Positions 3,106 through 10,746 of a stretch of 14,442 bases of DNA are shown in pieces; position 1 is the stretch's first letter, and every line of letters starts with the position of its first letter. The notes beneath the pieces were generated by a model, which was not told the DNA's origin, ran no database searches, and was given only the letters and a program-made list of their open reading frames with translations. The position numbers and the translations under genes were made by a program. The stretch lies in NCBI GenBank assembly GCA_027028665.1, contig JALVIU010000137.1, forward strand, positions 1 to 14,442, written 5' to 3'. Source of the DNA: Candidatus Atribacteria bacterium. GTDB taxonomy: Bacteria > Atribacterota > JALVIU01.

Positions 3106-3133
3106 TTCTTTAAGAATTCTAATGGAGGAAGGA

Positions 3134-4228
3134 ATGGCAAATATAGGGATATTTGTATCCTATAATGAAAGACCAGGTATATATATCCAGATAGAGAATT
3201 GGAAAAGAGTGTTTGAAAGATTAGGCTATAATACCTATATCTTTTCCTCTACTGTCCTACCTGAGTCTCTTTTCCATTATTCCATTACTAAAAATATATA
3301 CAAAAATGCCCTTATAAAATTAACTGATTATAATGAAATAGAACTTTTAACTATTATAGAAAAAATAAAAGAAAGAATAAAACATCGGGTAGAGCTATTT
3401 ATTAAGAACAACGATATTGATATATTGATCTTGGAAAATATACTATCTGGCGCAAGTGATATCCCTTATGGTATGGCCCTTGTTGAGGTTATCAACTCAG
3501 CATCCCTATATACTATAGGACATCATCATATCTTCTGGTGGGAGGTGCCAGGACTTAGACCTACCTGTAGTGGGATAAGAGAGCTAATGGATAAATACTT
3601 TCCACCTACTGCCCCCAACATTGTACATGTTACTGTGAATAGCATAGCTCAGGCAACATTAAGAAAGAGAAGAGGTATATCTTCACGTATTATACCTTAC
3701 ATGGTAGATCTTGATAAGATTCCACCACATACCGAGAATAAAGATAATACCACTCTTTCCCTTTTTTATCCATATTATGGGGAAGAGGATGAAGGGATAA
3801 AAATAGCATCAGAAATAGCCAGGAGAATGGAGAAAAGTAGAGTCTTAAAATCCCTTAATAAATCAGGGGTTACACTCCTTACCCAGCATTTCTCTCCCGA
3901 TATAGATTTCCTCCTATATACAAAGACATACGAACCCTGGGGGGATTATCTACTTGAGGCTATAAAGTTAGGTATCCCTACCCTGGTGTATCCTTATAAG
4001 GTATTTAAGAGAGATATTAGTCATTTTGAGTTTGACCTTATAATATTTCAGGATATAGATAATGCTATATCAAAGATGGAGGAATTTCTTCTGGATAAAA
4101 GGCGTCAAACTCAGATGAAAAGGCATAACCTTTCTATATTAAAGAAATGCTTTTCTCTTGATATGCTGGAGAAATACCTGTCTTCCCTATTAAAGGATCA
4201 AAAGACCCATAAATTCACCGCTAAGTAA
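3134..4228 (+). CDS. GT-B-type glycosyltransferase-like protein (GT4/mannosylglucosylglycerate synthase-like)
   Basis: Soluble protein of 364 residues with no signal peptide or membrane segment. I see features of GT4-type retaining glycosyltransferases: a Rossmann-like N-terminus (MANIGIFVSY), an aromatic/His segment GHHHIFWWE at 129-137, and YFPPTAPNIVHVTVNS at 155-170. A C-terminal E-x7-E motif (E267, E275) lies in YEPWGDYLLEA, the usual nucleotide-sugar site. The combination recalls the mannosylglucosylglycerate synthase/glucosylglycerate group, but this is from memory. The Arg/Lys donor-phosphate pair normally found near 210-220 is replaced by FYPYYGEEDEG, so donor use may differ or activity may be lost. 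The ATG at 3134 has GGAGG five bases upstream; the ATG at 3122 has no ribosome site and sits only ~10 bases after the predicted transcript start. It is transcribed alone and does not share an operon with the next gene, which has its own promoter. Substrate unknown. Confidence 0.7.
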   Translation: MANIGIFVSYNERPGIYIQIENWKRVFERLGYNTYIFSSTVLPESLFHYSITKNIYKNALIKLTDYNEIELLTIIEKIKERIKHRVELFIKNNDIDILILENILSGASDIPYGMALVEVINSASLYTIGHHHIFWWEVPGLRPTCSGIRELMDKYFPPTAPNIVHVTVNSIAQATLRKRRGISSRIIPYMVDLDKIPPHTENKDNTTLSLFYPYYGEEDEGIKIASEIARRMEKSRVLKSLNKSGVTLLTQHFSPDIDFLLYTKTYEPWGDYLLEAIKLGIPTLVYPYKVFKRDISHFEFDLIIFQDIDNAISKMEEFLLDKRRQTQMKRHNLSILKKCFSLDMLEKYLSSLLKDQKTHKFTAK

Positions 4229-4258: not shown

Positions 4259-4288
4259 TTGACAATCGACTGAACAGTCAGTTATAAT
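4259..4288 (+). promoter_or_regulatory. Consensus sigma-70 promoter of the export operon
   Basis: TTGACA (4259-4264), an 18-base spacer and TATAAT (4283-4288); both hexamers are perfect. An intrinsically strong promoter with operators on top of it suggests control by repression. Confidence 0.85.
4268..4280. promoter_or_regulatory. TetR-type operator 1, in the promoter spacer
   Basis: GACTGAACAGTCA is an imperfect inverted repeat (GACTG/CAGTC arms) between the -35 and -10 boxes. It matches operator 2 at 11 of 13 positions. A protein bound here would block RNA polymerase. The likely ligand is the TetR regulator encoded last in this operon; that pairing is inferred. Confidence 0.65.
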
Positions 4289-4302
4289 ATAAATCGTAAA
4301 TT

Positions 4303-4315
4303 GACTGACCGGTCA
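4303..4315. promoter_or_regulatory. TetR-type operator 2, just after the transcription start
   Basis: GACTGACCGGTCA, extended as TTGAC-N6-GTCAA (4301-4316), starts 35 bases after operator 1. That is a little over three helical turns, so two dimers could sit on nearly the same face. It falls about +8 to +21 from the predicted start site. Confidence 0.65.
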
Positions 4316-4344
4316 AATCTATGTAATATATAAGGAGGTTGTAT

Positions 4345-7122
4345 ATGAGGAAGTTGGCAGAATTCATTACAAAATATGCATGGCCCATACTTATAGTTCT
4401 TCTAATAATTACAGTGTATGCAGGGGTAAATGCAAGGAATCTAAGCGTGAATGATGATATTACTCAATATATTTCACAGGATGACCCTGAGATAAAATTC
4501 TATACAGAGGTTTCTGAGAAATTTAGCGGGCCTCAAGAAAATATGTCCATGATTGCTATAGAATACGATGATCTTTTCACTCTCGATCATCTAAAAAGGT
4601 TTAAGACCATTGTAGATAAGTTAGAAGATGCCCCATTTGTTGTTTCCCTTAATTCTTTCTTAAATATGCCAAAGATCGTCTCTACAGATGAGGGCATGGA
4701 GGTAAAGGATACTGTAGAGGTATTTCCTAAGACAGAGGAAGAGGCAAAAGAACTCAAAAAATCACTTCTTGCCGACAGCATGATAAATGGAAAATTTATT
4801 TCCCCTGATGGAAAAGTAGGTCTCATAATGGTAGAGACAAAAGAGGGAATGGATGGGACAAAACTTAAAAAGGCATTTAAGGATATAGTAGAGCCTCTAA
4901 AGGGTGATGCAGTAAAGGTTGTGTATTTTGGGATGCCTCTTATATCTGCAGAGATAGCTGAGAGTTCCACTGATACCATGAGATTGAGTTTTATATCTGC
5001 ACTTGTCATTTTACTTGTCCTGTACTTCTGTTTTAGAAGTCTAAGGGGTGTATTTTTGCCAATACTTGTTGCATTCCTTGCATCTATTTGGGTAATGGGT
5101 TTTGTAGGTGCAACAGGAAAATCAGTTACCATGATGATATCTACTATCCCTGTACTTATGATATCCCTTGCCACAGCTTATGGCATCCATTTCTTAAGTA
5201 GATATTATGAGGAGCGTCACAACCTTGGACCTATCGATGCTGTAAAGATGACAATAGAAGATACATTTGTCCCTATATTCATGAGTGCCCTTACAACAAT
5301 GGCTGGTTTTGCATCACTTATGACAGCTGCTATAAGACCTATGACAGAGTTTGGTATCTTCTCTACACTTGGTGTATTTTTTGCATTTGTACTTGCCACA
5401 TTTTTCCTGGGTTCTCTATATAGAGTTTTTCCTCCAAAAAAGGTGCATGAAAAGTTTTCTTATGAATCAAATGACATAATAACAAGGCTTCTTAGAATGC
5501 TTTCAAATTCTATTTTGAATAAAAAAGGCTTAATAGTTGTATTTTTTATTGTAATGATTGGACTCTCTATCTTTTACGGTATAAAGGTAAGACCTGAGTC
5601 CTCTATTGAATCAAGGCTTGGTAAAAATAACCAGATAGTAAAAACTATGGACTATTTTAAGGATAAATTTGGTGGTGTTGATTTCTTGTATGTCTATGTA
5701 AAATCAGAAAATGTAAAAAATCCCTATGTCTTAAGAAAGATAGAGGATATAGAGAAATACTCAGAACACCTTCCTGCTCTTCGTGAACCATCATCTATTG
5801 CAGATTTTGTAATACAATTAAATGATGCTATGGAAAATAAGAGGATTATACCGGCTGACCCTTCTAAAATAGATAACCTATGGTTCTTTGCAGGTAGCAA
5901 CAAGTATATTACCTCTATGATCGGGGATAAGGATGAAGATACCATCGCCCAGATAAGAACACGGGAAATGACTTCAAATGCACTTACAGAGGCAATTGAT
6001 AAGTTAAATAAGTTTATTGCAAAGATTCCTAAAAAGGTAAAGGCGGTGGATCTACCAAGCTTGGATGAAAATGAGCGGAAAAAGTACTATCCATATATTG
6101 CAGATGAGATTATAGATGCGCTCTCTGTAAGAGGTGTAAAAATAAAGGATAAGGATGGTTTGAAAAAAGAGCTTGTAAGTCTTATGGCCAAACCACTTTC
6201 TGGCTTTAAAAATACCCAGGATAGCTTTATTGATAAGATAATAGCATATTCATCATTAGAATTAGAGGATATGGGAATAGATAAAAAAGAGTTAAAACCC
6301 ATACTCATTCAGTATATAAAGGATAACAAGACTGAAGATGAACTCCTTAAGATGCTTGTAAACAAATTCGAACTCTCAGATGATGATGCAGATTATCTTG
6401 TAGGTGTACTTACCGATTCTGAAGAGATGGCCCTTGAAAGAGAAAAGGTAAAGGCTGCAAAGACTATGACAGAGAAATATATAGGCCAGAAGTTAGAGGA
6501 TGATATAGGGGATATCCTCTGGTATGTTATGGATAATGTGGCATATGTCCCTGATTTAAATGGGAATATAACCCTTTCCTTTAAGCTAACAGGTATCCCT
6601 GTTATTACAAATAGGATAAATGATAGTTTATTGCGAAGCCAGATTAAGAGTATGGGTATTGCCTTTGTAGCAGTATTTTTGATGCTCTCCTTCCAATTTG
6701 GTTCACTATTTATAGGAATTCTGACCATCATTCCAATACTTCTTACAATAGTTACATCATTTGGGCTTATGGGTCTTTTACATATCGACCTGAATATAAG
6801 TACAATAATGGTTGCAAGTATTGCTATAGGTGCAGGTATAGATTATACTATACACTATGTGACAAGATATAAAAATGAACTACAGAGAAGATCTAAAATA
6901 GATGCATTAAAGATTACAATGACAGGTACAGGGCGTGCCATAGTATTTAATTCTATATCTGTTGCAGCAGGGCTTTATGTACTTTCATTCTCCACCATTC
7001 GTATGATGGCCGTATTTGGTGAACTTATTGGAAGTGTTATGCTTATAAGTGTAGTTTATACACTTTTGTTATTACCTATATTATTAAACTACGCAAATTT
7101 TAAAGAGGAGGTAAAAAGATGA
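4345..7122 (+). CDS. RND/MMPL-family exporter permease (HAE-3-like)
   Basis: Inner-membrane proton-driven exporter of 925 residues with the RND duplicated layout. TM1 is at about 12-30, periplasmic loop 1 at 31-211, a TM2-TM6 block at 212-~365, TM7 at about 395-413, periplasmic loop 2 at 414-~769, and a last TM block at 770-~918. It has no N-terminal adaptor partner nearby and is shorter than AcrB, so it fits the HAE-3/MMPL-like group linked to hopanoid, lipid or sterol-like cargo. The TM10 motif GIDYTIH keeps D833-Y834, the likely proton relay by analogy with MmpL3. The equivalent TM4 position reads TAYGIH (A278-Y279) and lacks the Asp. Loop 2 is nearly twice loop 1, with a charged helical stretch at about 545-720. 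Start: the ATG at 4345 has AAGGAGG (4332-4338) 6 bases upstream; a TTG at 4339 abuts that site and is rejected. Its ATGA overlap with the LolA-like gene implies coupled translation. Cargo is unknown. Confidence 0.9.
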   Translation: MRKLAEFITKYAWPILIVLLIITVYAGVNARNLSVNDDITQYISQDDPEIKFYTEVSEKFSGPQENMSMIAIEYDDLFTLDHLKRFKTIVDKLEDAPFVVSLNSFLNMPKIVSTDEGMEVKDTVEVFPKTEEEAKELKKSLLADSMINGKFISPDGKVGLIMVETKEGMDGTKLKKAFKDIVEPLKGDAVKVVYFGMPLISAEIAESSTDTMRLSFISALVILLVLYFCFRSLRGVFLPILVAFLASIWVMGFVGATGKSVTMMISTIPVLMISLATAYGIHFLSRYYEERHNLGPIDAVKMTIEDTFVPIFMSALTTMAGFASLMTAAIRPMTEFGIFSTLGVFFAFVLATFFLGSLYRVFPPKKVHEKFSYESNDIITRLLRMLSNSILNKKGLIVVFFIVMIGLSIFYGIKVRPESSIESRLGKNNQIVKTMDYFKDKFGGVDFLYVYVKSENVKNPYVLRKIEDIEKYSEHLPALREPSSIADFVIQLNDAMENKRIIPADPSKIDNLWFFAGSNKYITSMIGDKDEDTIAQIRTREMTSNALTEAIDKLNKFIAKIPKKVKAVDLPSLDENERKKYYPYIADEIIDALSVRGVKIKDKDGLKKELVSLMAKPLSGFKNTQDSFIDKIIAYSSLELEDMGIDKKELKPILIQYIKDNKTEDELLKMLVNKFELSDDDADYLVGVLTDSEEMALEREKVKAAKTMTEKYIGQKLEDDIGDILWYVMDNVAYVPDLNGNITLSFKLTGIPVITNRINDSLLRSQIKSMGIAFVAVFLMLSFQFGSLFIGILTIIPILLTIVTSFGLMGLLHIDLNISTIMVASIAIGAGIDYTIHYVTRYKNELQRRSKIDALKITMTGTGRAIVFNSISVAAGLYVLSFSTIRMMAVFGELIGSVMLISVVYTLLLLPILLNYANFKEEVKR

Positions 7123-7892
7123 AAAACTTAAGAAATTTAGGTATTTTAGTAGTTATGCTTATCGTTGTGGTTTTTTCTGGGCTGGCCTATGCTATTACTG
7201 CAGATGAAATAATAGACAAAATGAATCAGGCAGCCCCTGATTTTACTACACAAAAGGCTATATCGAAGATGATCCTTATCGACAAAGATGGTAAGGTAGA
7301 AGAGGAAAGATCTATGCTTATGTTTTCTAAAAAAGAGGGTGATGAGACTACATCTCTTATGAGATTTCTTTCTCCTAAATCTGTAAAAGGTGTGACACTT
7401 CTCAATATAAAGGGTGGAGAAAAGATCTACCTCTATATGCCTGCATATAGGAAGCCAAGAAGGATAGCAGGTTCATCCAAAAGTGAGAGCTTTATGGGTT
7501 CAGACCTTTCATATGAAGATCTGAGTATGGACTATAAGGATAAGAAAAAATATGAAAGCAAACTTGTAAAAGAAACAGATACAGAATACATATTAGAAGT
7601 ACATTCACTGGATAAGGATACATCTTATGATAAGATAATGCTTTTTGTGGATAAAACACACTTTTATGCAAAGAAGGTGGAATTATACAAAAAGGGTGAG
7701 CTTTCTAAGATTATTCAGATGTTAAATGTAAAGATAGATGATAATGGAAAGGTAACACCTATGGAGATTGTGGTAGAGGATGCAAAAACAGGACATAAAA
7801 CAAAGATGGTGATGGAGAGTATAGAGTATAATATAAAATTACCATCCAATTTCTTTAGTATAAGAACACTTAAAAAACCTAAATTACAGTAA
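7119..7892 (+). CDS. LolA-like periplasmic protein (outer membrane lipoprotein-sorting family)
   Basis: Secreted protein of 257 residues. A signal peptide covers about 1-25 (KNLR start, hydrophobic core, AYA before ITADEI). The mature part begins with a helix containing ADEIIDKM and then alternates strands, with the family's central MRFLSPKSVKGVTLL and YLYMPAYRKPRRI segments (roughly 85-122) and FMGSDLSYED (about 126-135). Proteins of this LolA-like group have an unclosed barrel with a hydrophobic cavity and are usually encoded beside MMPL/RND permeases. I infer that it ferries the permease's hydrophobic cargo across the periplasm. There is no lipobox, so it should be soluble. It is not a true LolA of the LolCDE system, since no LolCDE genes are nearby. 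AGAGGAGG (7104-7111) lies 7 bases before the start, and the ATG overlaps the permease stop (ATGA). Confidence 0.85.
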   Translation: MKNLRNLGILVVMLIVVVFSGLAYAITADEIIDKMNQAAPDFTTQKAISKMILIDKDGKVEEERSMLMFSKKEGDETTSLMRFLSPKSVKGVTLLNIKGGEKIYLYMPAYRKPRRIAGSSKSESFMGSDLSYEDLSMDYKDKKKYESKLVKETDTEYILEVHSLDKDTSYDKIMLFVDKTHFYAKKVELYKKGELSKIIQMLNVKIDDNGKVTPMEIVVEDAKTGHKTKMVMESIEYNIKLPSNFFSIRTLKKPKLQ

Positions 7893-7969
7893 TTACCATC
7901 CTCCAAAGAGTGTGGGCAGGCTTGAAGAGAGGTTGGCATTTTAATACAATAAAATAAGGAGAAAGAATA

Positions 7970-8314
7970 ATGAATAGAAATCAATTAATTACATTGATTT
8001 GTGTGGCAATTGCAGGGCTTATATTTATCCCATCTGTTATATTTGCTATGCCACTAATTGCACTTTTTGGTGCGTTTTTTGATTGGCTACCTCTTTTTAC
8101 AGGATGGATGAAAACCGGACACATTGTTAACAAATTGCTCCTTATACTGCATACAGTAGTTACTATAATAGCATATATATTTTTTGTAGTATGGGTAATT
8201 ATGAAAGGAAATAGATTAATGGGTTTTACGTTCCTGGAAATATGGTGGATAGCAGTTATTCTGGGAGTATTGATGATAACATATAGAGGAAAAAGAAACA
8301 TTCAGGAGGTATGA
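7970..8314 (+). CDS. Small hydrophobic membrane protein of unknown function
   Basis: I do not recognise this 114-residue protein. It has about three membrane segments: a long one at roughly 5-37, one at about 50-77 and one at about 82-103. The loops are short and the C-terminus (RGKRNIQEV) is basic, so it would face the cytoplasm by the positive-inside rule. A GHIVNK segment at about 50-55, just before the second TM, holds a His that could matter. AAGGAG (7956-7961) lies 8 bases before the ATG. It sits 77 bases after the LolA-like gene and 3 bases before the barrel gene, all on one transcript, so I infer an accessory role in the exporter, perhaps as a small permease subunit. Codon use looks like its neighbours. 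That it is a real gene is well supported; the function is unknown. Confidence 0.75.
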   Translation: MNRNQLITLICVAIAGLIFIPSVIFAMPLIALFGAFFDWLPLFTGWMKTGHIVNKLLLILHTVVTIIAYIFFVVWVIMKGNRLMGFTFLEIWWIAVILGVLMITYRGKRNIQEV

Positions 8315-8317
8315 TAA

Positions 8318-9547
8318 ATGGAAAAAAGCAAAACCTTTATATTTATAATTTTTCTTATACTAATTACCACTTATGCATATGCAGGAGAATTTTCAGGCAC
8401 ATTTACTTACACTGGAGGTTATAATCTTCAAACTAATAAGTTAAACAATACACTGAAATTAGAACTTAAATATACAGAAAACTTCACAGATGAATTATTT
8501 GTAGAGGGTGATTTTGTATTAAAGTATACAGATAAACCTTTTGCACCACCTTTTATATTTATGCCAAAGGAGGCCTATCTTGGTGCATATGACCTTATTT
8601 CAAATCTCGATCTGAGGGCAGGTTTTCTCATTATATCGTGGGGAGCATCTGATATGTTCAGTCCCCTTGATAACTTTAATCCAATACCTCCTGAGATGTC
8701 AATTGGTAGCCTACCAGAAAAGAGAGGGGTACTTGGTGTCGATGCTACATATTATATAGATGACGATACATATCTTCAGGTAGTATATTTACCTAAATTT
8801 GCTCCATCAATGATGCCACCAGAGGCAGAGGAGAATATGTATCTTGGTATGTTTGCACCACAGTTTGCATCACAGGGTATCAATATAACCTCTGTAAATA
8901 TTACCCATAATACCCCACAAGGTCCTGCATGGGGTATAAAACTTGCCAGAAGTTTTGAATCATTTGATGCCGCACTCTCCTACTACAATGGATATTATAT
9001 GAGTTCATTTGTCCACTCTATGGTCCCAGACCCTGCCACAGGTACCCTGGATCTGACACTCTCTAACCCCAAAAAACAGGTTTTTGGGCTCGAATTTCAG
9101 GGGGACTTTCCAGGAATAGAGGGTGCCACACTTAGAGGTGATATCGCATATATAATACCCCAGCCATGGCAGTTAAATGGACAGGATGTGCTAAAGGATC
9201 CTTATGTTAAGGCATCTATTGGCGCAGATTATAAAACATCTTCTGACCTTTATATAAATCTTGGATATATGTATGGATTTATGACAGAAGAGGGGGATAA
9301 GTGTTCACCATACATGTATCTTATACTAAAACAGCCAATAAAGGATACAGATCTTACACCTATATATACAGGCCTTATAAGCCTTAAGGATGGAAGTATG
9401 CTCCATTCTATAGGGGTAGAATACAAGGTAACAGATGACCTTTCTATTACATTATCATATGTAAAGGTGCTTGGAGATGATACATCCAAATTAGGTGCCA
9501 TGAAACGTGCAGAAGGTATATATCTTTCAGGAGAGTGGTCTTTTTGA
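8318..9547 (+). CDS. Outer-membrane beta-barrel protein, DUF1302-like
   Basis: Exported protein of 409 residues. A signal peptide covers about 1-22 (AYA before GEFSG). The rest alternates polar and hydrophobic residues in short strands with Tyr/Phe belts, and the last residue is Phe (SGEWSF), the usual BAM recognition signal. The segment LIISWGASDMFSPLDNFNP (104-122) resembles the WG-x-SD...D-x-x-NP hallmark of DUF1302-type barrels, which are commonly encoded with RND permeases and LolA/LolB-like proteins. I infer that it is the outer-membrane exit or receiving site for the exported molecule. AGGAGG (8303-8308) lies 9 bases before the ATG. Its TGA overlaps the ATG of the TetR gene by one base (TGATG), so the two are translationally coupled. 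It is not TolC-like: there is no coiled-coil tunnel sequence. Confidence 0.8.
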   Translation: MEKSKTFIFIIFLILITTYAYAGEFSGTFTYTGGYNLQTNKLNNTLKLELKYTENFTDELFVEGDFVLKYTDKPFAPPFIFMPKEAYLGAYDLISNLDLRAGFLIISWGASDMFSPLDNFNPIPPEMSIGSLPEKRGVLGVDATYYIDDDTYLQVVYLPKFAPSMMPPEAEENMYLGMFAPQFASQGINITSVNITHNTPQGPAWGIKLARSFESFDAALSYYNGYYMSSFVHSMVPDPATGTLDLTLSNPKKQVFGLEFQGDFPGIEGATLRGDIAYIIPQPWQLNGQDVLKDPYVKASIGADYKTSSDLYINLGYMYGFMTEEGDKCSPYMYLILKQPIKDTDLTPIYTGLISLKDGSMLHSIGVEYKVTDDLSITLSYVKVLGDDTSKLGAMKRAEGIYLSGEWSF

Positions 9548-10119
9548 TGGATAAGAGGGAAAAGATCCTGAAAGCCGCTATCGATGTATTTTTTCAAAAG
9601 AGCTTTTATGATGCTACTATGGAGGATATAGCAGAGGCATCAGGTGTAAAAAAATCCACTATATATTATTATTATACTTCAAAGATGGATCTTGTTTTTG
9701 AGCTTTTGAAGGATAGCATAAATATACTATTTACAAATCTTGAAGAGATCCTGAAAAATACAGAAGAGGCCAAAAGCAAGGTAAAAAGCATTATAGATTT
9801 CTATATTAAGATGTATAAGGAAAATTACAAACTCTTTATCGTTTTTCAAAGAATTGGGTATGATTTTATGAAATCTAAAGATGAAAAGGCAAGAATAAAT
9901 GAGTTTTTTGAGAATTTAAGAAAAGAGAAAAAGAAACTTACTTCTCTTTTTGGGGATGTAACTTTATCAAGTGGAAAAACTTTAAACGGAGAGGTATTTG
10001 TAGGTGCCCTTATGGGTGCACTGGGAAGAGTGATATTTGAACATATATCACAAGGTAAAGACCCAAAGGAGAAAGAATTAAGAGATATTGGAGAGATATT
10101 TATAGCAGCACTTAAATAG
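9547..10119 (+). CDS. TetR/AcrR-family transcriptional repressor of the export operon
   Basis: Regulator of 190 residues. The N-terminal helix-turn-helix is classic TetR (about 1-50): REKILKAAIDVFFQKSFYDATM, then EDIAEASGVKKSTIYYYYTSK, where the recognition helix and Tyr-rich cap match the family. The C-terminal ~140 residues form the helical ligand pocket and dimer surface, rich in Phe, Ile and Leu, consistent with a hydrophobic ligand. It is last in the operon it probably represses, through the two operators at 4268-4280 and 4303-4315; induction would come from the transported compound. Start: the ATG at 9547 overlaps the stop of the barrel gene. AGGAG at 9529-9533 is 13 bases away, somewhat far, so coupling is likely; GTG 9535 and TTG 9544 are weaker choices. 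Auto-repression is inferred. Confidence 0.88.
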   Translation: MDKREKILKAAIDVFFQKSFYDATMEDIAEASGVKKSTIYYYYTSKMDLVFELLKDSINILFTNLEEILKNTEEAKSKVKSIIDFYIKMYKENYKLFIVFQRIGYDFMKSKDEKARINEFFENLRKEKKKLTSLFGDVTLSSGKTLNGEVFVGALMGALGRVIFEHISQGKDPKEKELRDIGEIFIAALK

Positions 10120-10141
10120 ATAACACCTTATCAAATAAACC

Positions 10142-10174
10142 AAAAAGGTCCGAGATAATTCTCGGACCTTTTTT
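10142..10174. terminator. Strong bidirectional terminator
   Basis: AAAAAGGTCCGAGA (10142-10155), loop TAAT, then TCTCGGACCTTTTT (10160-10173): a perfect 14-base-pair stem ending in a T run on both strands. It lies 22 bases after the TetR stop and 6 bases past the end of the converging gene, so it can stop both transcripts. Confidence 0.92.
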
Positions 10175-10179
10175 ACTAC

Positions 10180-10746
10180 TTATTTTAAGCTATCTATCAT
10201 ATAATCTATAGTCTTTTTGTATCCTGCATATTTGTCTTTAGGTAAATATACAATAAGCGCTAAGCTTTTTTCATTTTTTATTGTTACATACATAGTAAAA
10301 TAATACTGCTTTTTCTCTCCCTCTGTTTTTTGTTTAGATGGGAAAGGTGGCTCAGAGGTCTCTGCTAACAGACTTAAACCATTTTTATATTTTTTTGGTC
10401 CATCAACTATCTTGCCATTTCCTTTTTCTACTATATCCTTTGCTGCCTGGTCAACCTGTTTTTTAAGATACTCCATATCTACCTTTACATCATCACCTTC
10501 TCCAAAGAGTTTTACTCCTGCTGCAATGATCATATCTACCTCTGGGCTTCCATAAAGAACTCCTTCTTTATGTTCTTTTAAAAGAGGCACCCCTTTAGGG
10601 ATAGCTATTTCAAATAGTCCTTTGGGGGATTTGTACACAATAAAATTATCAGGATTTGGTGTAGGTGTATCCTCTGCGTATAAAATAGTGGTAAAAACAG
10701 AAAGTAAAAGCACAGTAAATAATCCTAAAACTAAGAATTTTCGCAT
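10180..10746 (-). CDS. Secreted protein of unknown function
   Basis: I do not recognise this 188-residue protein with certainty. It has a clear signal peptide (MRKF, hydrophobic core 4-21, cleavage likely after LYA at 24) and no lipobox, so it is probably periplasmic or released. The mature part opens with a Pro/Thr-rich linker and a strand pair (NFIVYKSPKGLFEIAIPKG, about 33-51). It ends with IKNEKSLALIVYLPKDKYAGYKKTIDYMIDSLK-type strand-helix elements. Short strands around an 'FEIAIPKGW'-like start and a final YMIDSLK helix recall PsbP/Mog1/DUF1795-fold proteins, but the resemblance is weak. AAGGAG (complement of 10756-10761) lies 9 bases before the ATG. It is transcribed alone from its own promoter and shares a terminator with the export operon. 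A functional link to that operon is possible but not shown. Confidence 0.8.
   Translation of the reverse strand: MRKFLVLGLFTVLLLSVFTTILYAEDTPTPNPDNFIVYKSPKGLFEIAIPKGVPLLKEHKEGVLYGSPEVDMIIAAGVKLFGEGDDVKVDMEYLKKQVDQAAKDIVEKGNGKIVDGPKKYKNGLSLLAETSEPPFPSKQKTEGEKKQYYFTMYVTIKNEKSLALIVYLPKDKYAGYKKTIDYMIDSLK

Follow-up and report, generated by a model that had tools for sequence, protein, structure and literature searches.

A conserved TetR-controlled permease-carrier-barrel cassette in Atribacterota, probably a little-studied export route for a lipid

The window analysed here, a stretch of 14,442 nucleotides, is the whole of C137, one of the 413 contigs of a 1.79 Mb MAG that is 90% complete. Its host lineage is a deep-branching, uncultured anaerobe of the phylum Atribacterota, and among the 49 other phylum members listed there is no second genome of the MAG's own family. 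Five open reading frames, each preceded by a good Shine-Dalgarno sequence, lie on the + strand between positions 4345 and 10119. They encode an MMPL/HAE3-like RND permease of 925 amino acids (4345..7122; the start is probably the ATG at 4345 rather than the TTG at 4339), a LolA-like periplasmic carrier of family PF17131 (7119..7892), a 3-TM protein (7970..8314), a DUF1302-type outer-membrane barrel (8318..9547) and a TetR-family repressor (9547..10119; start probably the ATG at 9547). The genes of the permease and the carrier share 4 nt in an ATGA overlap, a 77-nt gap separates the LolA-like gene from the 3-TM ORF, and the barrel stop and TetR start overlap by 1 nt (TGATG). A sigma-70 promoter, TTGACA-N18-TATAAT (4259..4288, + strand), which matches at 12 of 12 positions and has an 18-nt spacer, precedes the genes, and a bidirectional intrinsic terminator (10142..10173), a hairpin with a 14-bp stem and T-runs on both sides, follows them. 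All five genes predicted by an earlier sequence-only reading are thus present, bracketed by the one strong promoter and one strong terminator which it had described. The intergenic gaps hold no intrinsic terminator-like site, and the five genes are probably carried on a single transcript.

Upstream of the operon, ORFs on the opposite strand point to a primary sigma factor together with a primase of the DnaG type. On the + strand, a glycosyltransferase-like gene (3122-4228) ends 31 nt 5' of the promoter; it was rejected as an operon member, no homologue of it being found beside other cassettes. At the 3' side a gene on the - strand (10180-10746) is convergent with the TetR gene across the common terminator and encodes a secreted orphan protein of 188 amino acids with 0 Pfam and 0 NCBIfam matches; beyond it lie CbiM and the ABC ATPase of a cobalt-type transporter.

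The permease matches the MMPL family PF03176 in two stretches with 156.5 bits (cut-off 20.5), which agrees with the inner-membrane pump proposed before. Its best NCBIfam model is HAE3 (TIGR00921), with 269.5 bits against a curated cut-off of 351.9, and the protein is HAE3-like and no certified HAE3 member. A structure search with its AF2 model (pLDDT 87.5) returned the lipid, siderophore and sterol transporters MmpL4/5, MmpL3, HpnN and NPC1, with MmpL4/5 as the best fold matches; identity to HpnN, MmpL3 and MmpL4/5 is 12-15% over the structural alignments. To our knowledge, none of these last three is accompanied by a LolA-like carrier or a DUF1302 barrel. Asp833, His837 and His282, located in the TM10 and TM4 regions, are invariant in the permease alignment, and their positions appear to coincide with those of the proton-relay residues established for the RND family. 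The second periplasmic loop contains a helical insertion of ~170 residues (about 557-735, corresponding to window positions 6013-6549), which is present in 37 long relatives and absent from 18 short ones. MmpL4/5 likewise carry a helical insertion in this loop; in the model of the window permease the insertion consists of short helices and a single longer one of 35 residues, is built of shorter helices than theirs and forms no long coiled coil. It is possible that this insertion is a docking site for the carrier or another partner. The permeases as a whole split into a long class of about 925-990 amino acids and a short class of about 750, many of the latter from Bacteroidota.

The carrier, with a Sec signal peptide and no lipobox, scores 155.1 bits with LolA_like PF17131 (cut-off 30) and has relatives with a solved LolA fold (9tp6, 3bk5, 4z48 and 3buu), in keeping with the suggested soluble carrier with a lipid-binding fold. 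The assignment of the next partner as an outer-membrane barrel is supported by a DUF1302 match of 27 bits (cut-off 23.2), a Sec signal peptide, a C-terminal Phe and an AF2 model of a barrel (pLDDT 92); DUF1302 was matched by 43 of 52 aligned barrel relatives. Fold searches with this model yielded OprD/MOMP/AlgE-like barrels at Z about 21-22 and, among the matches listed, no FadL-type barrel. The most conserved stretch, around W108-G109-D112 and situated between strands, may form a plug.

Judged by gene content, the core cassette is composed of the MMPL/HAE3-like permease, the PF17131 LolA-like carrier, the DUF1302 barrel and TetR. The first three occur together in 26 of the 27 other Atribacterota permease loci with enough flank, as counted by hand from the locus table; the only exception, L056, misses the barrel, and TetR adjoins most of the 27. 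At L063, L066, L067 and L074 the LolA-like gene had been dropped by the ORF caller; a PF17131 match is listed for all four, and in L063, L067 and L074 the reading frame was seen on inspection. The cassette is present in most Atribacterota families. Among fully flanked loci outside the phylum, picked solely by carrier similarity, permease and barrel were each found in 23/23 and TetR in 15/23; these loci come from many phylum-level groups, among them KSB1, WOR-3/Stahlbacteria, Bacteroidota, Eisenbacteria, Cloacimonadota, Spirochaetes, Krumholzibacteriota, Marinimicrobia and Deltaproteobacteria (groups named from record titles). Comparison is thus what shows the gene set and order, the families, the folds and the conserved operator. 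Neither a TolC-type factor (PF02321) nor an adaptor is encoded in the cassette, so the HAE1-type tripartite scheme does not apply, and the notion of a trans-envelope set without periplasmic adaptor or TolC stands for these four co-occurring families. The co-occurrence originally envisaged for five families does not extend to the 3-TM protein.

This 3-TM protein, encoded between carrier and barrel, has no Pfam domain, and permissive Pfam and PHROGs scans returned nothing significant. It is absent from the 49 other Atribacterota genomes, and the LolA-barrel gap of five relatives from family f5 contains no 3-TM-like ORF. Real homologues (40-47% identity) exist outside the phylum in a handful of genomes. 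They occupy unrelated neighbourhoods there, never next to a carrier, barrel or TetR gene; in one case a distant member of the MMPL family is encoded about 6 kb away. We therefore rejected it as a core part, and its supposed place in the export system fell with the finding that its homologues are scattered relative to the permease. The gene is best read as a local accessory insertion, judging from its distribution; insertions between carrier and barrel are common in other phyla. It belongs to an undescribed family of ~100-aa membrane proteins, scattered over a few phyla, with invariant D-x-L-P-L and G-W motifs and at most 3 copies per genome (members at L160:8117-8413(-), L161:7763-8059(-), L162:7860-8156 and L164-L172).

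The regulator (9547-10119) matches TetR_N of Pfam with 53 bits. Two operators are predicted for it on the + strand: operator 1, TCGACTGAACAGTCAGTT (4266..4283), an imperfect inverted repeat that fills the promoter spacer, and operator 2, TGACTGACCGGTCAAA (4302..4317), just 3' of the -10 element. The core that they share, GACTGAMCRGTCA, has two exact matches in the 1.79 Mb assembly, namely these two sites, a count that shows only the lack of further copies because the pattern was derived from the sites themselves. An independent test is provided by the loci of relatives. The 18-mer TCGACTGAMCRGTCAGTT was found with at most 3 mismatches 5' of the permease gene in 17 of 18 other Atribacterota loci outside family f2, which do not represent 17 independent events because some of the genomes are closely related; the eighteenth locus, L057, has a weaker site with 4 mismatches. 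When each of these upstream regions was shuffled 100 times, no shuffle equalled the real match. In the f5 relatives L044, L047, L064, L065 and L075 the operator again occupies the spacer of the promoter, TTGAC(A/T)-N18-TATAAT, as it does in L055, where the -10 element is TAAAAT. The site is missing from all seven f2 loci, five of which have a TetR gene, located upstream and belonging to a different, more distant subfamily. Site and regulator thus vary in step, a strong indication that repressor and operator form a dedicated pair; an exception is L070, with a perfect 18-mer site and no TetR recognised nearby. The earlier claim of TetR control, now backed by a TetR gene and a conserved predicted operator at the promoter, accordingly gains strong support: by these comparisons the cassette would be controlled by its own TetR through these sites.

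The reading we favour, with somewhat better than even confidence, is that of a self-contained, TetR-repressed and pmf-driven exporter. The MMPL/HAE3-type permease would use the pmf to extract a hydrophobic, probably acylated molecule from the inner membrane, the soluble LolA-fold carrier would ferry it through the periplasm, and the porin-like DUF1302 barrel would take it at the outer membrane. TetR, bound to the two operators over the promoter, would repress its own operon, its release presumably being triggered by the transported molecule or a relative of it. Direction of transport, pmf coupling, carrier hand-off, cargo and inducer are what we infer for this route. A lipid-like cargo is favoured by association with the 38 genes inserted in cassettes of other phyla, among which are 11 GT2, 9 patatin, 3 acyltransferase and 2 KAS-III genes, one PEMT domain and one LPG-synthase domain, counts that are not independent, the inserted lipid genes being concentrated in a few related lineages. 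Genes flanking the cassettes are more mixed and include acyltransferases, methyltransferases and one MlaE. Against this reading, the window cassette holds no lipid-synthesis gene, so that the case for a lipid cargo draws on remote relatives; the nearest solved barrel folds are mostly uptake porins; and RND proteins of the same fold, such as NPC1, can also move lipid inward. On balance, we take the well-conserved and hardly explored cassette for a real export route, probably one for a lipid, that harbours a fifth gene unrelated to it.

We found no paper on the exact set of MMPL, LolA and DUF1302, and nothing relevant in the literature on Atribacterota with RND proteins and an outer membrane. 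Calling the set poorly described is fair for its mechanism and overlooks the close analogues on record, AmeABCD, PG1178-1181 and ApeLMN. AmeABCD of Castellaniella defragrans also unites an HAE3 RND permease, a LolA-superfamily carrier and a DUF1302 outer-membrane protein in one cassette; a deletion mutant is less tolerant of monoterpenes and accumulates more Nile Red, a phenotype suggesting export, and the description consulted names no TetR within the cassette (PMC6394551). Differences are that AmeB is a DUF1329 carrier, whereas PF17131 is the only carrier family found with the window cassette; that the extra periplasmic AmeC has no equivalent in 4259-10174; and that the Ame permease measures 787 instead of 925 amino acids in an OMP-first gene order. 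As the closest tested analogue, AmeABCD lends weight to a detoxification pump that would rid the cell of hydrophobes of foreign or metabolic origin, such as solvents, terpenes or hydrocarbons, instead of placing a lipid of its own in the outer membrane, the toxicant being sensed by TetR. Such repressors commonly sense pump substrates, which fits as well. The genes inserted in other phyla, however, make or modify lipids, and the spread through most Atribacterota families suggests a housekeeping cargo; we regard detoxification as an unlikely explanation that nevertheless deserves some weight.

PG1178-PG1181 of Porphyromonas gingivalis and their Prevotella intermedia counterparts, strongly induced without hemin or iron, comprise a co-regulated TetR, MMPL transporter, 'outer membrane lipoprotein-sorting protein' and hypothetical protein (PMC10434189, PMC10470040). 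By analogy they appear to form a comparable unit, differing in having the regulator first, adjoining ABC genes, induction by iron/hemin starvation and a hypothetical protein that may or may not correspond to the barrel. This induction resembles that of uptake systems and, together with the likeness of the barrel to the uptake channels OprD/Occ and MOMP, could point to import, with barrel and carrier bringing a hydrophobe in and the RND protein loading the inner membrane as NPC1 does. Siderophore exporters, among them the MmpL4/5 proteins that are the best fold matches, are also encoded by starvation-induced operons, and the MmpL, HpnN and Ame relatives are exporters, which makes import quite improbable.

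In the aryl polyene clusters, ApeL-ApeM-ApeN likewise pair a LolA-like carrier with an RND permease, proposed to deliver an acylated pigment to the outer membrane; they differ in a LolB-like acceptor instead of a barrel and in lying among biosynthesis genes, of which the window cassette has none (PMC8253772). In Borrelia BBJ25-28 a LolA-like protein is paired with an ABC transporter and Omp85. With the Lol lipoprotein system the cassette shares the LolA fold; the carrier belongs to PF17131 and not to PF03548, and the cassette lacks LolCDE and LolB, so it is not a canonical Lol system. The MAG encodes a BamA-type Omp85 and LptD_N/OstA domains, and therefore very probably has an outer membrane. 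Its single MMPL and single LolA_like protein both come from the operon. The MAG gave no match to OEP/TolC (PF02321), though such a match exists in 46 of the 50 phylum members, none to MlaD or LolA PF03548, and one sub-threshold FtsX match with no clear LolCE; these absences are leads because 10% of the genome is missing. The lack of a PF03548 LolA and the lone sub-threshold FtsX match would suit a substitute lipoprotein sorting route, in which the LolA-like protein carries lipoproteins from the RND protein in place of LolCDE-LolA. The MAG is, however, just 90% complete, other Atribacterota possess in addition a LolCDE-like ABC set that comes with a further LolA-like protein, Bacteroidota retain the ordinary Lol system alongside the cassette, and we know of no lipoprotein function for PF17131/MMPL pairs, so that we give this idea hardly any credence. 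Very unlikely, too, is a general lipid (perhaps even lipoprotein) route to the outer membrane formed by the pmf-driven pump, carrier and barrel in a lineage devoid of TolC, LolA-LolCDE and Mla, with the 3-TM protein as lineage-specific pump modulator.

The cassette matters beyond this contig, as it recurs across many phyla in nearly fixed composition and only distant analogues have been tested so far. Its operator footprint makes the Atribacterota cassette directly testable, and TetR binding or inducer screening could reveal the cargo. The cassette is also a small system in which to study how RND proteins work together with LolA-fold carriers and barrels in the absence of adaptor and TolC, and bears on how deep-branching diderms build their outer membrane.

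PF17131 proteins were also seen in other settings. In f2 and f5 Atribacterota a second PF17131 protein follows an ABC ATPase and two MacB/FtsX permeases in a LolCDE-like set (L036:928-4951, where the domains were checked, and also L040, L042, L045, L046 and L051), so that this carrier family has an ATP-driven partner as well. In a third arrangement (L039:1444-4959, L043 and L054) a PF17131 protein precedes a divergent MMPL protein of ~906 amino acids, related to the window permease at E about 1e-24, without a barrel. Finally, the gap between LolA-like and barrel genes in L047, L055, L064, L065 and L069 consists of 176-330 nt of noncoding DNA that begins with a shared TAGTGAATAGTATTTAGT-like word, also present at other loci of the same genomes, and looks like an interspersed repeat.
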